This document shows, one piece after another, positions 3,178-19,260 of a stretch of 23,327 bases of DNA (the stretch's first letter is position 1; each line of letters starts with the position of its first letter). Below the pieces are notes generated by a model, which was not told the DNA's origin, did not search any database, and was given only the letters and a program-made list of their open reading frames with translations. The DNA lies in the IMG/VR virus record IMGVR_UViG_3300034198_008618, positions 1 to 23,327 of that record; one strand, written 5' to 3'. The position numbers and the translations under genes were made by a program. The stretch is from a virus.

Positions 3178-6100
3178 CTAGTGCTTTGCCTGCTCGGTAA
3201 TACGCTTGTTTAGGCCATCCTTCAAGCCAACAACAATCGAAACGCTTGACATGTACAGATTTGCACAGTCCACGTTGACTACCGCTGGAGCAGTCTCTGT
3301 GTATGCGATCATCTGGAGCTGGCCTTTCTGATTCGCGCAGTGGACCTCCATCTGGACAAATCCCTGAAGGTTGTAGATCGACTGGATCTGCTGCTGAGTA
3401 AACGAAGCGTTCTGGACCAAGTACGATACTGATGAAAAGCCCACCACGGCTCCATCTGTGCCGATAGAGATGCTGGTTCCTGGCAGCGTCCCACTGTAGT
3501 CTTGATATGCGAACAGTCGAACGCGTTTGACGCGCTGGAAACCCTGTTCACCGCTCATCGAGAACGGCCCCATTACCCAGAACATCGGATAGAACTTCAG
3601 CGTATAATCAAGTGCTCCCTGAAGCCTGTCCACATGGATATCGTTCTGCTTGTATACAAACGCCTGCGGGGTGTTCGTAAGGTTCCAGCTGTCCGTGCTC
3701 TTTGACGCGATCCATGCATAACTATCCATGACCGCGATACGGTTACCGGATGACTCCGTGAATGACTGCGTCTTCCATACGTACCAGCCATTGAGCTTGT
3801 AGCTGTACACAAGGGTGTTGCCACCATCCATGCAGAAGTAGATCTCTTGCGACTTGGCGTTGTGCGCAGTCGATACAACCTGCTGGTCAGCGTTCAGGTA
3901 GTCCTGGACCTTGTCGCCGATCTGGAAGATCTCAAGGTTTGGCTTGAGCAGCTCAATGCTACGGGTGCTGCGGAAAAACACACCCATTGGCGTTTCGATG
4001 ACAGACCGATGGTCAACACATCCAAGACCGGATGGCAGCGCATACGGAGTACCGAACGAAGTGGAACGACCAGTCGCATCAGGCATCGTCCCAGGAATGA
4101 TGTAGACGTCGGACTTCTTGAAGACGATAAGGTTATCGCCAAGAGACGCGAGCCCAGTGACTGGGCCTCCATCCTGGATATTGATAGTCAGCGCGTCATT
4201 GAACCCAGGAGCATCAGTTGGGTTAAGTTCCTTCGAGAACCAGATGACCGATGCGTCGTCTGCGCCACCGATGACGAGTCGATTCTGATGTACGCACATC
4301 GCCTTGCACGCAGGAGGCGCGACGTTATCGAGCACGTCTCCGGTGGTGTAGAGGTACGGCTCCGCAAGGATGCCGTTGTAGTCTCGCGTTGGACCGTCAA
4401 GGCATCGGAAGTTGTCGGTAACAAACCCAAGTGGATTCGCGTTAGCTCCGCCATATGGGATAGACGAGTATGGAGCAATGCCGCGTGACTCGTTACGGCC
4501 AATGACGAAGTCGCCAGATGGGTTCACGAAACTAGAGAACGGCATCCGGTAGAGCACCGTCGAGTAAGGCTCCGCAGTAGTGTACGGCTGAAGCACAACT
4601 CGACGGCTATCCGATGCAGCCGTAGACAGTCGGTTCGTTAGCTCAAGACGCGGAGCAAAGAACCCGTAGCGGAACTGGAATACCTGTCCACCAGTATACT
4701 TTGGGACGTCGTTGCTGTTTGCCCACGCACCAAAGATCTGAGCGCATACGGTATACGTCGCTGGCACTGATGGGCACGAGCGAACCATGCGACCAGTAGC
4801 GTCAGCGTATTCGTACGTCCATCGCATGATGAAGTCACCAGCTGCGTCCGCTGCATTGTACTGGCTCTGCTTGAGTGACGCCCAGCCAGCTGCGTTTCGA
4901 GGAGCCCAGACGTACAGACCAAGGTCTTGGTTTGGCCCTACTGCGATAGGATTTCCAGGAGTTGAATCATCGTAGATGGCTGGAGCAGAATGATAGCGTC
5001 CATAGTAGTGCTGGTTCAGCGAACCTGTCATGGCCATGCCAGACGCATATCCAGTTCGAGCTATCGACAGCTGGCTGATTCGAGGGTCAGCGTACACTGA
5101 CTCATAGTTGTCAGATGGGTTGCCGCCCCAGTACGTGGTGATAGGAGACTCCCACCCGATTGATGCACTAACGCCGTTCTTGTCATTGAACCCAGCTTCA
5201 TACTTGAACCATGGGCGGGTAATATTGATCAGGAGATATGAGTTCCTGAACGAGTAAAACGCACTGGCCCTGTTCTGAAGAAGTGGAGATCCTGCATTCT
5301 GCGGGGACACGATATACAACTCTGGAGACACGTCGTTCCAGTTGATTGTCGTATAGTCCTTTTGAGGCCACAGCAGCATGGACGACTCATTCACAGATGC
5401 GCCGTCGTAGCAGGACAGTACGCCTCCGTTAACGAACGTATAGTCAGACATGACGGCCATAGACCGCCAGTTTGCTGGGCTCTTCTCGTAGCTCAGAAGA
5501 AAGACTTCTTGAGTGCCTTTGGAAGAGCCATTCCTGAGTCCTCCAGCGACGAGCTTGGAGCCACTGAGCAAAAGACGTGGCGTATTAAACGGCGCGGACG
5601 TGACGCGCATCATGTTGCACGACTCCACAAACACACCTGTGCTTCCAGAATACGTCACGTACTGAGATCCTGAAAGCTCTGGCGTTTTAGCCCACCCAGG
5701 ATCTGTAATCGTGACCGTCTGAGACGTGGTCCCGACACGCACAAGGAACGTGCTTTGCTGCATCGTGTCGCCACCTGGGCAGATGCCGCAAAAGTAGTAG
5801 TCTCCATCCTTGGCCAGACCAGAAACCAGACGCCACGGTCCTCCTAGAGACGTGATCAAGTTGGACGTCGACCCGCCTCCAGACCCAATATTCCTAAGTG
5901 GACCGTTGCTCAGACCAGACCACTTATACACCTCAAACTGGTTGTTCTGCGTATGAGGGTCAGCTGCTCCGTATGGCGCATCCCCACTTGGGTTAGTGAT
6001 CTGAGTGGATGCAGTTGTCGCGATTGCACAAACTACGACGCCAGATGAATCGCGGTCTACGCTCCACCTGTGTACGCAGTCCTCAAGTCCGCGTTGCGAC

Positions 6101-15298: not shown

Positions 15299-16969
15299 TT
15301 ATTTGAAGCCGAACCGATTATTCCTGTTTTTATTACGAATCTTCGTTTCAATTTTCCCCCATATCTTTTTTTCTTCTTCATTCATCGAGCGATAGCCGTC
15401 TTCAAACTCGTGTTGTTCGGTGGCAGTTCGCTCTTCGTGCCATCGGGTAAGGGCCATGCAGATGGCTGGAGCGTAGTCGGCGTGTCGACCGTCGTTGCTT
15501 TTCGCGAGGTCGATGGTGATGCCGTTGTTGGTGTAGCGTCGGATGACGCGTTGCAGGTCTTGACGGACGGTATCGTCTGGAGGCAGTTCGACTTCACCGA
15601 TCTCGAACATGGTTCGGAGCGTGAGGTATCGCCTGGTGCGCTCGGTGGATGTCCAGGCGTGAGGGACGAGCACGAGTCCGACTTGGGAAGCGAGGTCACG
15701 CATGGCGTCGCCCATGTACTGGTCGGAGTCGAGGACGGTGACGCGGTAGGCCTTGAGGATGTGTGCGATTTCTGCGAGCACGAGTGCTGGTCGCAGGGGA
15801 TTTGTGGGGCTACCGGTCCACTGCTTGGCTAAGCAAATAGTCTTTTGCTTACGTCCGGAGCCGGTGGCGACGACGAGTGTGAAGCTGTTGCCACGGGTAG
15901 CGGGGTCGATGGCAGCGGTGTACTGCAGGGCTGGGTTTGGAGACAGGACGATGGGCTCTTTGCGAGTGGCCTGCTCAATCATGCTGGTGCTGAAGAGAGC
16001 TTCTTCTGGGTCAGCGAACTCCGCTTCGATGTCGGTGCGGTAGATGCGCATATCGCGCTTGGCGATTTCGAGCTTGTCTGGAGTCCAGATGATGGGGGCC
16101 ATGTCATAGGCGGGAGCCTTGATGACCATGCAGTCGCGGTCGGGCTTGCCCCATCGCTCTTTGACAAGGTCGTAGAGGAAGCCCATGGGGGCCCAGGGGC
16201 TGGAGATGTAGACGAGTTGAGCGCCGGGTAGGATGCGCAAGAGGACGGCGTCGCGCAGGTCGTTGACGGAGACAGCAGCATCGTCCGCACCCCAGCGAGC
16301 GACTTCGTCCATAATGACGCCAGCGGACCAGCGTGCGACGAGGGACGAGCCGGCCTTGGAGGCAGCGACGACTTTGATCTCGACGGGGCGACCGGAGGGG
16401 TGACGGACCATGAGTGTATCAGCCGTTGGGTTCTCCAGGATAATCTTGGAGAGCAGCGGCGAGGCCATGGTGCGACCGACGATGTGCCCGAAGATGACGT
16501 CTGCTAGGTCTTTGGATAGCGAGACGATTGAAATTCGAGGTATTTCTCCAGGGCCAAGTCTTGAGAGGTCGGCGCGCTGGGACCAGTAGATGGCCATGGC
16601 AGCGGCGCTGAGGGACTTGGCGGTGCGGATACCTGCGACGATAGCGACTTCAGCTGGTTTGACAGCAGGCGGGAGTGTTCCTCCGCACGCGCGCAGGACG
16701 ACATCATCTCGGCCAAGCTCATCGAGAGGACGGCCATCAACGATGCGAGCGATAGCTCGTTGGAGTGGAGAAGCAGTAGTGAGAGCAAAACCGAGAGGGC
16801 TAGTGAGAAGGCCCTCGAAGTGAGTAAGAGACTTTTGCTCCAGCTCAGCTTTGACGCGTGCTTCGAAGTCGACAAGAGCGGATTCAGCTTTGGACGGGGT
16901 TACGCGGCGGTCGTCCACGACGGCGGACGGGTGCAGCTTCTGGCTCTTCTTTGACGGCGACGACAGCAT
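15299..16969 (-). CDS. terL: Terminase large subunit, 556 aa
   Basis: The ATPase-nuclease that packages DNA. The frame is open back to 17203, but the upstream part is Ser/Pro-rich, out-of-frame-looking sequence that overlaps another gene; ATG 16969 is preceded by AAGGA nine bases away and is preferred. From that start: a Walker A-like segment VAGIRTAKS (111-119; the usual GKS is replaced by AKS), Walker B VIMDE (218-222), coupling motif SSP (256-258), and RNase H-like nuclease aspartates D355 (AAIDPATRG), D414 (TVLDSD) and D498 (RHADYA). All expected motifs are present in order and length is normal. The C-terminus is Asn/Lys/Arg-rich. The gene overlaps the upstream AT-hook gene by 86 bases. 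Confidence 0.92.
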   Translation of the reverse strand: MLSSPSKKSQKLHPSAVVDDRRVTPSKAESALVDFEARVKAELEQKSLTHFEGLLTSPLGFALTTASPLQRAIARIVDGRPLDELGRDDVVLRACGGTLPPAVKPAEVAIVAGIRTAKSLSAAAMAIYWSQRADLSRLGPGEIPRISIVSLSKDLADVIFGHIVGRTMASPLLSKIILENPTADTLMVRHPSGRPVEIKVVAASKAGSSLVARWSAGVIMDEVARWGADDAAVSVNDLRDAVLLRILPGAQLVYISSPWAPMGFLYDLVKERWGKPDRDCMVIKAPAYDMAPIIWTPDKLEIAKRDMRIYRTDIEAEFADPEEALFSTSMIEQATRKEPIVLSPNPALQYTAAIDPATRGNSFTLVVATGSGRKQKTICLAKQWTGSPTNPLRPALVLAEIAHILKAYRVTVLDSDQYMGDAMRDLASQVGLVLVPHAWTSTERTRRYLTLRTMFEIGEVELPPDDTVRQDLQRVIRRYTNNGITIDLAKSNDGRHADYAPAICMALTRWHEERTATEQHEFEDGYRSMNEEEKKIWGKIETKIRNKNRNNRFGFK

Positions 16970-17183
16970 GCGGTGGTTCCTTGGGGTCTTCGATCTGGGG
17001 GACGGGGACGGTCTTGAGTTCGACGACGTTGTCGAGAGGAACGAGCAGGTCACCGGAGCGGACGAAGCCGTTCTCGTAGCGGAGGTCACCGTGCTTGGGC
17101 CGATAGAGCGTGGTGGTGATTCGAGATGGGTCGATGGGGTCAAAGACGCCCCGCAGGAAGATAGCGCGCTGGAGTTGAAGCAT
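16884..17183 (-). CDS. AT-hook protein upstream of terL, 99 aa (possible small terminase or DNA-binding factor)
   Basis: First gene of the minus-strand late block. Residues 1-60 read as a compact beta-containing domain (FDPIDPSRITTTLYRPKHGD, then VRSGDLLVPLDNVVELKTV). The tail is Pro/Glu/Val-rich and ends in PVRRRGRPPRNP (about 85-96), a canonical AT-hook core (RGRP flanked by basic residues) for minor-groove binding of AT-rich DNA. It overlaps the start of terL by 86 bases in another frame. The ATG at 17183 has no clear ribosome site, the main reason for doubt. The position immediately before terL and the DNA-binding tail would fit a small terminase subunit or a late regulator, but no terminase-small helix-turn-helix is seen; function is inference. 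Confidence 0.6.
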   Translation of the reverse strand: MLQLQRAIFLRGVFDPIDPSRITTTLYRPKHGDLRYENGFVRSGDLLVPLDNVVELKTVPVPQIEDPKEPPHAVVAVKEEPEAAPVRRRGRPPRNPVQS

Positions 17184-17537: not shown

Positions 17538-17563
17538 GATAAAAGCGCATGCGTAGTACGATT

Positions 17564-17583
17564 GTTAAGTGCCCGTAATCGTT
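17564..17583 (+). repeat. 20-bp direct repeat, copy 1
   Basis: GTTAAGTGCCCGTAATCGTT. Matches copy 2 at 17793-17812 in 19 of 20 positions, same orientation, 229 bases apart. Such a long near-identity in non-coding DNA suggests a protein-binding or promoter element. Confidence 0.75.
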
Positions 17584-17624
17584 GACATATCTAGCGGTAA
17601 ACGTATGCGCAACGTGTGTATATG

Positions 17625-17655
17625 ATATTACGGTGCGTTGTGCTAACGTTGTCAA
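17625..17655 (-). promoter_or_regulatory. Second weaker candidate leftward promoter
   Basis: The minus strand has a perfect TTGACA (plus bases 17650-17655). A -10 is poor: CGTAAT with 17-bp spacing or TAATAT with 19-bp spacing. It points the same way as the better candidate about 120 bases downstream. Confidence 0.25.
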
Positions 17656-17676
17656 ACCGTAGTGAGTGTGTATGTT
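17649..17676 (+). promoter_or_regulatory. Weak candidate rightward promoter
   Basis: TTGTCA (17649-17654), 16 bases, then TATGTT (17671-17676) on the plus strand. It faces the early genes but shares its -35 bases with the opposing TTGACA, so the two cannot both be taken as secure. No stronger plus-strand promoter was found before 17896. Confidence 0.25.
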
Positions 17677-17792
17677 GAGCGTAATACTCCATCATACTCT
17701 AAGCACACAACGCCAAACCATCCCTCACGACAAAGGTTCGGAGGTTGAGAGTATGGAACATCCGTTGTCAACTACTCTTTTCGCCGCCGTGC

Positions 17793-17812
17793 GTTAAGTG
17801 CCCGGAATCGTT
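17793..17812 (+). repeat. 20-bp direct repeat, copy 2
   Basis: GTTAAGTGCCCGGAATCGTT, one mismatch from copy 1 (T to G at repeat position 13). It lies about 85 bases upstream of the first rightward gene. Confidence 0.75.
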
Positions 17813-17895
17813 AAGACTGGACACTGAGAAAAAGAATCGACACGCGAAGCGATAATGAATGTGGACATGGGCGCGAATGCTGGTAGTGTCTGCGT

Positions 17896-18300
17896 ATGGT
17901 CATTAATATGCAAAATCAGAATGAAGCGAAGGCCTTCGCGCGCGCCTCGCGCGAGGTTGTCGCGCTCGTTGACGAGGCGATGCTCGCGGGACTGGCGGTC
18001 ATCCGAGCGCGTCGCGCCGTGTTGAAGGCCGATGACGCGGCATGCGTCGCAAAGTGGCTTCTGAAGGCCAACGGCGGCGAGGAGAACGTCCGAGAGTACG
18101 CCAAGGTACGCGCCGCTTACCTCGAATGTGAAGCACGGTGCATCGTCGAAGAGAGGTGTTTCGCCCGCGCCTGTAAGGCGCTGCGAGACGCAATCAAAGG
18201 CGATGCGGTGCGCCTCGCCGCCGTCCGTGGTCTCCTGGAACGTGAAGCGGAAGTCTCGCCCGTGCACTGCCAAGCCTCCTGGTTGATTGACCTGGGCTGA
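17896..18300 (+). CDS. Small Ala/Arg/Cys-rich helical protein, 134 aa, unknown function
   Basis: First gene of the rightward block. I do not recognise it. Almost the entire sequence is Ala/Arg/Glu-rich and predicted helical (EAKAFARASREVVALVDEAM, then LKADDAACVAKWLLKAN), with seven cysteines but no regular metal-binding spacing. Codon use is strongly G/C-ending, as in real genes here, and favours this strand over a 159-aa frame opposite. There is no ribosome site before ATG 17896 or the in-frame ATG four codons later, so initiation may be atypical. The gene ends nine bases before the first mini-tRNA-like element. First position in an early operon is often held by host-takeover or regulatory proteins; that is only a contextual guess. 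Confidence 0.6.
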   Translation: MVINMQNQNEAKAFARASREVVALVDEAMLAGLAVIRARRAVLKADDAACVAKWLLKANGGEENVREYAKVRAAYLECEARCIVEERCFARACKALRDAIKGDAVRLAAVRGLLEREAEVSPVHCQASWLIDLG

Positions 18301-18309
18301 ACGACCATA

Positions 18310-18350
18310 GCCGTAACGGTTCCAGCGCGGGTTCGATTCCCGCGAACGGC
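18310..18350 (+). ncRNA. Mini tRNA-like element 1 (acceptor + T-arm only), 41 nt
   Basis: A canonical tRNA T-arm is present: stem CGCGGG/CCCGCG with loop TTCGATT, including the full B-box GGTTCGATTCC. It is followed by a 7-nt strand GAACGGC and then A, where a tRNA would have its acceptor 3' strand and discriminator base. The 5' end GCCGT pairs with ACGGC, giving a 5-bp acceptor. Only ten nucleotides, containing a GG like the D-loop G18-G19 pair, lie between the 7-nt 5' strand and the T-arm, so there is no D-stem or anticodon arm. It starts nine bases after a stop codon. No complete cloverleaf can be built with upstream sequence. CCA is not encoded. Function unknown. Confidence 0.7.
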
Positions 18351-18389
18351 ACTATCAGAAGACGAACGGAACGCCCGCGAAAGCGCGCT

Positions 18390-18555
18390 GGTCCGTCGAG
18401 TCGATGTTCATTGACAATTAGTCTCTAGCGGTCCGTGCCTAGTGCGCGGTCCGTGCTACGCGCCTCCGGGCGCGTATGACCTGTCCGCGCATGCGCGGAA
18501 GGCATAGGCAAGGGCAAGCCGAGGGACGAAAACAAACGCTAACGCGCGACGGACC
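18390..18555 (+). ncRNA. Possible structured RNA closed by a 9-bp long-range helix
   Basis: GGTCCGTCG at 18390-18398 is exactly complementary to CGACGGACC at 18547-18555. Enclosed are an 8-bp stem capped by TCCG, a UNCG-type tetraloop (TACGCGCC/GGCGCGTA, 18457-18476), and a 16-base perfect palindrome TCCGCGCATGCGCGGA (18484-18499). The amount of pairing exceeds what short GC-rich spacers usually show. Whether this is a separate RNA or an mRNA leader cannot be told; no promoter or terminator is certain. Confidence 0.4.
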
Positions 18556-18583
18556 GACAACCCGACGCGCACCTAGCACGCGT

Positions 18584-18619
18584 CGACTCGCACGGAGTCG
18601 AACAAGCTTCGCAAGCTTG
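18584..18619 (+). other. Tandem hairpins upstream of a ribosome site
   Basis: CGACTC-GCACG-GAGTCG (18584-18600) is followed directly by CAAGCTT-CGC-AAGCTTG (18603-18619). Together with the GCGCCA element at 18630 they form three consecutive stems leading to the AAGGAG site at 18647-18652. No T-tract follows, so an intrinsic terminator is unlikely. Confidence 0.5.
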
Positions 18620-18629
18620 CGCGTGCTCT

Positions 18630-18644
18630 GCGCCATAGTGGCGC
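18630..18644 (+). repeat. GCGCCA-N-TGGCGC ribosome-site hairpin, copy 1
   Basis: GCGCCA-TAG-TGGCGC ends 15 bases before the ATG at 18660 and is followed two bases later by AAGGAG. It is one of three copies in the early region, each just upstream of a start codon. Confidence 0.7.
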
Positions 18645-18659
18645 TTAAGGAGAAAGATA

Positions 18660-18875
18660 ATGAGCCTACTGACCATTCAAGCGCGCAGCATATACGCTGA
18701 CGCCAAGCCAGAACCGGTTCGACCGGTCCGTAAGATGGCCATCATTCACCGGGCAACCGGCGAAACGGCCATCGCCACGGCCAAGCCTGCCACCAAGCCA
18801 ACGGCCACGGCCAAGCCTACCCGGAAGCTTTCTGGGCCCCGCTTCCGCGTGGAAGCAATTCAGGAGACAAAGTAA
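18660..18875 (+). CDS. Small basic Lys/Pro/Thr-rich protein, 71 aa, unknown function
   Basis: The ATG has a very good ribosome site (AAGGAG, seven-base spacing), which makes the gene convincing despite its size. The N-terminus is ordinary (MSLLTIQARSIYADAKPEPV), and the middle carries imperfect short repeats of the type A-K-P-(A/T)-T-K-P (about residues 41-55), giving a strongly basic, probably disordered segment. The end (GPRFRVEAIQETK) may form a strand and helix. Basic Pro/Lys/Ala repeats suggest nucleic-acid or membrane-surface binding, but there is no family match I can name. The next gene starts two bases after the stop. Confidence 0.65.
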   Translation: MSLLTIQARSIYADAKPEPVRPVRKMAIIHRATGETAIATAKPATKPTATAKPTRKLSGPRFRVEAIQETK

Positions 18876-18876
18876 C

Positions 18877-18984
18877 ATGATTACCATCCCATCAATCAAC
18901 GGCCGCCCCGCGCGTGAGTATGCCATGGGCATTCTCGGTAGCGCGCTTCTCGGCGCGCTCATAGGGCTCGCCTTCTGGCTGTAG
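18877..18984 (+). CDS. Tiny single-span membrane peptide, 35 aa
   Basis: An ATG one base after the previous stop, preceded by AGGAG, opens a 35-codon frame ending in TAG. The first 16 residues are polar (MITIPSINGRPAREYA) and the remaining 19 form one hydrophobic Gly/Ala/Leu helix ending in AFWL at the very C-terminus. This would insert as a single tail-anchored or N-in/N-out segment in the inner membrane. Small membrane peptides in early phage operons often act on host membrane proteins or superinfection; a holin-like role is possible but there is no endolysin nearby. The stop lies four bases before mini tRNA-like element 2. Confidence 0.6.
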   Translation: MITIPSINGRPAREYAMGILGSALLGALIGLAFWL

Positions 18985-18988
18985 CCCT

Positions 18989-19031
18989 GGCCCTGAATGG
19001 TTTTACGCAGGTTCGATTCCTGCGCAGGGCC
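18989..19031 (+). ncRNA. Mini tRNA-like element 2 (acceptor + T-arm only), 41-nt core
   Basis: The core at 18990-19030 has the same length and layout as element 1: GCCCTG pairs with CAGGGC (6 bp), the T-arm is CGCAGG/CCTGCG around loop TTCGATT, and the linker contains TGG. An extra G at 18989 can pair with C at 19031, extending the acceptor; in register this is a G at -1 opposite C73, the pair that marks bacterial histidine tRNA. Relative to element 1 both stems have changed with pairing kept (for example G20-C32 to A20-T32 in the T-stem). It starts four bases after a stop and is followed three bases later by the GCGCCA hairpin. No D- or anticodon arm is present. Confidence 0.7.
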
Positions 19032-19033
19032 CT

Positions 19034-19047
19034 GCGCCAAGTGGCGC
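19034..19047 (+). repeat. GCGCCA-N-TGGCGC ribosome-site hairpin, copy 2
   Basis: GCGCCA-AG-TGGCGC lies between mini tRNA-like element 2 and the GGAGG site for the 64-aa gene. It is identical over 15 bases (including the following T) to the copy at 22343. Confidence 0.75.
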
Positions 19048-19065
19048 TATTGGAGGATATCATAT

Positions 19066-19260
19066 ATGAGTGCAATCGAATCGTTCATAACAACGCTCAT
19101 CGGCATGGCCGATGATAAGCCTGAGAGGCTCGCAACCATCGTAGCGGTCCTTCGCGGTCTCGCCCGCGATAGCGTGTACGCTCCGGAAGTGGAGCTTATC
19201 GAGGCTATGGCTGCCTACTTCGAGAACAAGCTCGAAGAATTGGAGCAGCCATGCTCCTGA
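19066..19260 (+). CDS. Small helical protein, 64 aa, unknown function
   Basis: The start ATG at 19066 follows GGAGG at a nine-base spacing; the same frame is open further left, but that part would run through the tRNA-like element and is not used. The protein (MSAIESFITTLIGMADDKPE, then VYAPEVELIEAMAAYFENKL) looks like three or four short amphipathic helices with an acidic end. No known motif is visible. It overlaps the next gene by ten bases, so expression is coupled. Unknown function. Confidence 0.7.
   Translation: MSAIESFITTLIGMADDKPERLATIVAVLRGLARDSVYAPEVELIEAMAAYFENKLEELEQPCS

Follow-up and report, generated by a model that had tools for sequence, protein, structure and literature searches.

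Synthetic minihelices composed of an acceptor stem and a T-arm are minimal substrates of RNase P. In mitochondria, tRNAs lying between genes, directly after stop codons, act as cutting marks in the transcript. A further tRNA-shaped molecule, tmRNA (RF00023), carries a tRNA-like domain with an acceptor stem, a stemless D-loop with GG and a T-arm and no anticodon arm, joined to an mRNA-like part with a tag reading frame. RNase P binds pre-tRNA through the T-arm, through stacking on the elbow of D-loop (G18) and T-loop, and through base pairs between L15 and the 3' end (PMC13254310). The enzyme also gauges how long the acceptor stem and T-stem are together (PMC10731613). Its non-tRNA substrates include phage M3 RNA, phage C4 antisense RNA, T4 gene 32 mRNA, and the tRNA-like 3' ends of plant viruses (PMC11143913). 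Repeats upstream of phage genes are known from the cluster K mycobacteriophages, in which SAS has a fixed 13-bp consensus (GGGATAGGAGCCC) and ESAS contains 17-bp inverted repeats (PMC3203893).

Here we analysed a virus record over its full length of 23,327 bases (the window), in which two 41-nt elements, E1 and E2, show the acceptor-plus-T-arm form. They are nearly identical in minimal shape to the synthetic minihelices; those, however, are man-made, and the phage elements add a D-loop-like linker. With the mitochondrial marks they share the position of a tRNA-shaped RNA between genes, right after stops, and a proposed role as cutting marks, but the mitochondrial marks are functional full tRNAs, whereas the elements occur in phages and lack the decoding parts. 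Like the listed RNase P substrates, they are phage or viral RNAs with tRNA-like features, of which cleavage is presumed for the elements; the listed substrates are single cases, whereas the elements form a covarying intergenic family repeated along operons. SAS and ESAS are likewise repeated upstream of phage genes but are not tRNA-like, and the SAS consensus had no match in the window at up to two mismatches and was essentially absent (one match) from the Cuke and Send513 regions.

At relaxed Rfam thresholds, E1 aligned to the ends of the tmRNA model, which form its tRNA-like domain (E 8.5e-6, below the gathering score). This alignment was the key to the shape of E1, since it allowed the linker (AACGGTT, or AATGGTT in E2) to be read as a stemless D-loop (A14 R15 Y G18 G19 U). 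Unlike tmRNA, the 41-nt elements have no mRNA-like part, no tag reading frame, no insert between linker and T-arm, and no CCA, and they occur as many copies in cis between genes. The alanine pair G3-U70 of tmRNA was not kept (C3-G in E1 and E2; G-U as the third pair from the outer end in 8 of the 124 copies listed), and alanine charging is therefore unlikely.

ARAGORN detected no tRNA or tmRNA in the window and no tRNA in most multi-copy loci; a tRNA-Phe that it placed in locus L183 (one overlapping call) coincides with an intact mini-element. Rfam 15 at the gathering score gave no match in the window, and its sole match in ten multi-copy loci was a DUF805b RNA, which is not an element. No description of such a family was found in a search of open-licence PMC papers, although subscription papers could contain one. 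The family is apparently undescribed, as the earlier note had supposed for phages; it lacks a defining property of tRNA, of tmRNA, of the Rfam 15 families and of SAS/ESAS. The fold is of a known kind; what the literature searched does not describe is the family, the use made of it in genomes and how widely it is spread. The elements have apparently remained unannotated because they are too short for tRNA finders and are in no RNA library.

Results

Structure and position of E1 and E2

In the window, the minus strand carries late genes, among them that of a terminase-like protein (15299-17182), and the plus strand carries early genes from 17896 onward. Two gap-free elements with the layout that the earlier note had drawn were found exactly at 18310-18350 (E1, GCCGTAACGGTTCCAGCGCGGGTTCGATTCCCGCGAACGGC) and 18990-19030 (E2, GCCCTGAATGGTTTTACGCAGGTTCGATTCCTGCGCAGGGC), both on the plus strand. 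In E1, an acceptor stem of five pairs and an A-A mismatch (18310-18314/18346-18350) is followed by the D-loop-like linker (18315-18321), a T-stem (18326-18331/18339-18344) and a T-loop, TTCGATT (18332-18338). The corresponding parts of E2 are an acceptor stem of six pairs (18990-18995/19025-19030), or seven with the optional pair G18989-C19031, the linker (18996-19002), a T-stem (19006-19011/19019-19024) and the same T-loop (19012-19018). The T-stem has 6 bp and the anticodon arm is absent in both. One T-stem pair is G-C in E1 and A-T in E2, and the acceptor pairs also differ, with pairing kept.

The drawn structure was the minimum-energy fold for both elements (E1, -15.3 kcal/mol; E2, -18.2 kcal/mol). 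Because the folding energy of E1 alone was not significant (z -0.6), the case for E1 and E2 rests on layout and comparison rather than on energy. A scan of the window for a T-arm, an acceptor stem and the linker GG returned exactly two matches, E1 and E2, whereas 300 first-order Markov resamples of the window gave one match in all and never two. E1 and E2 are thus confirmed as real and present exactly as drawn.

Both elements lie shortly behind a stop codon, as had been noted before. E1 starts 9 nt past the TGA (18298-18300) of a 134-aa ORF (17896..18300, plus strand), for which a Pfam search gave no family and a contig scan no relatives. E2 starts 5 nt past the TAG (18982-18984) of a small 35-aa ORF (18877..18984, plus strand). 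Directly 3' of E2, after CCT, come a short hairpin (GCGCC-AAGT-GGCGC, 19034..19047), of a type that also follows many other family members, the ribosome-binding sequence GGAGG (19052..19056), and the ATG at 19066 of a 64-aa gene (19066..19260), all on the plus strand. This order matches the plan found in the phages Cuke and Send513 (see below). E1, by contrast, has no close gene or hairpin downstream, the next gene starting at 18660.

Two further features were seen in the same region. Upstream of the gene at 18660, positions 18575-18644 may contain a three-way junction closed by AGCACGCG/CGCGTGCT. Behind it come the hairpin CTGCGCC-ATAGT-GGCGC and a ribosome-binding site, which is the E2 plan with a different folded module; this module is partly conserved in the related contigs L002 and L003. 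At 17560-17830 and 18525-18550, words resembling GTTAACG/CGTTAAG are repeated in non-coding sequence that precedes the early genes. They also occur in L002 and L003 and are perhaps regulator binding sites.

A widespread family with covarying stems

Viral contigs were first scanned with the pattern GGTT-N6..9-GGTTCGATTCC, which returned ordinary tRNAs together with many contigs carrying the mini-element, several with 2-6 consecutive copies. Viral contigs were then scanned with AATGGTT-N6..9-GGTTCGATTCC and genome contigs with AATGGTT-N6..9-GGTTCGANTCC. These motif scans, made on sequence only, gave at least 259 distinct matches in at least 225 virus and genome contigs. Since the patterns required AA(C/T)GGTT or GGTT plus GGTTCGANTCC, the conservation of the loops is partly imposed. 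The patterns are silent on the acceptor stem, and pairing of the flanks is therefore an independent test. An acceptor stem of at least 5 bp was present in 192 of the 259 matches listed, compared with about 28 when 3' flanks were exchanged between elements. It directly adjoined the AAY of the linker in 182 of these 192 paired elements.

A structure-fitted alignment of 150 copies, from which the window was left out, was used to measure covariation. Stem cells were paired in 96.8%, against 51.2% after shuffling and 39-53% after sliding; the absolute figure is inflated because the alignment was fitted to the model, a bias of which the flank-exchange test is free. The covariation score was 1.04 versus 0.18 in the shuffled alignment, and 11 of the 12 pairs showed compensatory changes on both sides. 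Additional copies in the same contigs were found by structure alone, and 55 of 72 among the matches listed kept YGG in the linker, which indicates that the D-loop mimic is not merely a product of the search pattern. The reading of E1 and E2 as acceptor plus T-arm, with the linker GG as a D-loop mimic and selection on pairing, had been proposed from two copies; it is now strongly supported by a large set of unrelated ones, and the family is solidly established.

A covariance model of the 150 copies (R3), with the window held out, matched E2 at E 1e-13 and E1 at E 4.7e-10. Judged by this match, E1 and E2 are members of a widespread intergenic phage RNA family, and a chance origin of the two is very unlikely. 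Against lambda, 2972, Giles, phiC31, B40-8 and half of crAss001, the model produced nothing with an E-value below 0.28, and searches of P-SSP7, Pseudoalteromonas HS2 and parts of HM1, phi38:1 and crAss001 gave no convincing match. The phiC31 match of a loose scan was its annotated tRNA-Thr and was discarded.

Distribution

The contigs related to the window through terminase and GP88-type proteins (L002-L029) had no element in a structure scan and model search. Relatives had been named in the earlier note as the place to look for further copies; none was found in the close ones (L002, L003, L007, L027 and L028), and unrelated phages carried them. A condition that the earlier note had named as refuting its reading thus applies in part. 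As inferred from flanking matches, the stretch with the 134-aa ORF and E1 is apparently missing from L002 and L003. A lone T-arm-like match in L003 and L023 was treated as chance; its loop is TTCGAAC, it sits within coding-like sequence, and the early genes lie on the other strand. Very different phages carried up to about 11 copies per genome among the matches listed. At E <= 1e-4, the model matched 3 of 118 Bacteroidota genomes, a prevalence to be expected of a mainly prophage-borne element.

A contig labelled Bathyarchaeota (L251, 780-1254) had four elements in 475 bases, spaced about 110-170 bases apart with GTGAAGT-type repeats between them. In the Haloferax marinum genome, three strong copies are scattered on the archaeal chromosome, one of which (L270, 5475-5515) precedes a gene with a lipoprotein-like start. 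In the crAss-like phage cr109_1 (L356), a partial model match at 6005-6029 (E 0.013) lies 26 bases ahead of the DNA polymerase gene and is possibly a copy that has diverged.

Other folded modules were seen as well. On the reverse strand of L230 (2630-5070), a variant is repeated four times in which the acceptor is followed by an extra hairpin (e.g., GGACGC-TTA-GCGTCC), GGT and a T-arm with the loop TTCGAAC or TTCAAAC, and then by ACTA, ACTG or ACGA and a hairpin; it is apparently a three-armed form of the element. L002 (1878-1937) and L003 (8905-8964) share a 60-base intergenic stretch that is 100% identical in diverged surroundings. It includes a three-way junction of 53 bases, closed by GTCGCAGC/GCTGCGAC. 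One of the arms has a 5-bp stem and a 7-base loop that reads CTCATAA, like the initiator tRNA anticodon loop; there is no T-arm, and C-T-G and a hairpin follow, as after E2. The exact 21-base core of this junction was absent from all other viral contigs.

Genomic placement

Among the matches listed, 60% of the elements started within 30 nt of an upstream stop, commonly at about 9 nt, compared with 12.5% of random positions, and 4% lay inside a same-strand ORF of more than 100 aa, compared with 33% of random positions. A hairpin of at least 5 bp was found within 15 nt downstream in 78 of 192 listed elements (about 40%), against 14-24 in shuffled sequence. In an automatic test of the matches listed, the local coding strand was that of the element in 99 cases, opposite in 37 and unclear in 56; orientation is therefore a trend and not a rule.

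Isolated phages gave the clearest examples: Mycobacterium phage Cuke has 10 full-length copies and Mycobacterium phage Send513 has 11, all unannotated. In Cuke, most copies begin 8-10 nt past a stop, and the next start lies 42-51 nt behind them; after each copy come ACG, a hairpin and a purine-rich site. In Send513, the distance from the preceding stop is mostly 7-15 nt and that to the next start 39-46 nt. The two phages thus mostly repeat one order: stop, about 7-15 nt, element, hairpin, purine-rich site, and start. In another contig (L101), the unit is repeated six times. In L305, an element (5189-5229) is followed after 3 bases by a DUF805b RNA (RF02914, 5149-5185) on the same strand.

The 3' tail and features of RNase P substrates

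The bases that follow the acceptor stem were counted in the copies with a 12- or 13-nt 3' strand among the matches listed (n=112). The base at tRNA position 74 was C in 77 of these (background, 16%), position 75 was A or T in 95 and C in just 5, and position 76 was A in 73. From these counts, the tail reads N-C-W-A, which is NCCA-like with C75 avoided. E1 is followed by ACTA (18351..18354), which fits this tail, and E2 by CCTG (19031..19034), which fits up to position 75 and has G as the last base instead of A.

Two features of RNase P substrates are present in the family, namely the elbow of AAYGG linker and T-loop and an acceptor/T-stem of about 12 bp. From the loop to the stem end, the 3' strand measured 11, 12 or 13 nt in 47, 75 and 54 elements, respectively (176 of 192 listed), the value in tRNA being 12. 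The family keeps the elbow, T-arm, stem length and C74, and all decoding parts are dropped. Judged from these features, the element retains all that the RNase P contacts need apart from C75. Since RNase P pairs with C75 in RCCA substrates, its avoidance suggests either that recognition is partial or that the avoided C75 means something else.

Discussion

The elements mimic the half of tRNA that enzymes processing the tRNA ends read. They combine a coaxial acceptor/T-stem of about 12 pairs with a T-loop, on which the stemless D-loop would be able to dock. In a polycistronic phage transcript, such an element would fold right behind the upstream stop codon. Its 5' end would then be cut by host RNase P, a second cut after base 73 would be made by nucleases that process tRNA 3' ends (RNase Z or others), and the double cut would yield separate messages. 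At E2, the freed downstream mRNA would start near its 5' hairpin, followed by the ribosome-binding site, and the hairpin should shield it from 5'-end-dependent decay. Effects on mRNA stability and expression would be expected to follow.

We lean slightly towards the view that the elements punctuate phage mRNAs by serving as cleavage sites for RNase P. Cutting by RNase P is judged most likely because the contacts are kept and because the bacterial enzyme also cuts several tRNA-like RNAs and mRNAs of phages and viruses. Punctuation by such putative cleavage is also the best fit to the gene context. The broader proposal, that the stand-alone tRNA elbow is an undescribed class of cis-acting RNA serving as an operon punctuation mark in phages of several bacterial phyla (and found also in archaeal genomes), with early transcripts cut by host RNase P into single messages that each have their own 5' hairpin and ribosome-binding site, seems to us evenly balanced between true and false. 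Against cleavage stand the avoidance of C75, the lack of a close downstream gene or hairpin at E1, the presence of a hairpin in only about 40% of the copies, and the absence of the element from close relatives. The weak points are C75 avoidance and the lack of a protecting hairpin on the upstream message, and they leave room for a 3'-end cap, ribosome docking or a decoy.

The elements might remain uncut, or be cut at the 3' side only, and, much like the tRNA-like 3' ends of plant viruses, cap the 3' end of the upstream mRNA against 3'-to-5' exonucleases; cleavage by RNase Z and addition of CCA might come first. Their position directly after stop codons is where a cap would be needed, and RNase P would leave the upstream message ending about 9 nt past its stop with no protecting hairpin. 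This explanation is nevertheless unlikely: a plain hairpin would suffice as a cap, so that the retained D-loop mimic is unexplained, as are the separate hairpin and ribosome-binding site downstream of many copies, and with C75 avoided no CCA is encoded. We consider it quite improbable that the elbow docks on the ribosome (e.g., on the L1 stalk) and keeps or re-recruits ribosomes for the downstream gene. A terminating ribosome could reach an element that begins about 9 nt past the upstream stop, a start site follows in many copies, and the L1 stalk and RNase P recognize the elbow alike (PMC13254310); but so near the stop the structure would be covered, or else unfolded, by a ribosome that has just terminated, the elements have no anticodon or codon mimic, and L1 binding does not require the 12-nt stem length.

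The many copies per genome and the full elbow mimic would also suit a decoy or sponge that draws off tRNA-end enzymes, T-loop modification enzymes or a host defence that targets tRNA. A decoy would not need the fixed intergenic placement with the hairpin and ribosome-binding site behind it, and anticodon nucleases are excluded as targets because there is no anticodon loop; we regard this role as very doubtful. Phages often use 3' tRNA ends as attachment sites, and the absence of the element from close relatives would be in keeping with chance or with att-site-like remnants of tRNA, one of which the earlier note had considered as an alternative. The remnant reading is contradicted by more than 150 copies with covarying stems in one uniform truncated form of about 41 nt, many of them sharing a genome with different stems and no full tRNA behind them. 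Chance or remnants are thereby refuted for the family and, given the match to the model built without the window, very unlikely for E1 and E2, and as an explanation overall they are barely credible.

Cleavage by RNase P as a punctuation signal thus leads our readings, and its consequences would be considerable. If the elements are RNase P sites, phages would process polycistronic mRNA generally through an essential host enzyme, in a manner comparable to the RNase III sites of T7 or to mitochondrial tRNA punctuation, and maps of phage gene expression would need revision. The proposal is directly testable in the cultured phages Cuke and Send513 on Mycobacterium smegmatis. Furthermore, the family, of which the earlier note had known two copies and which is now seen to be widespread, would supply naturally occurring minimal substrates for studying the RNase P and RNase Z of many hosts.
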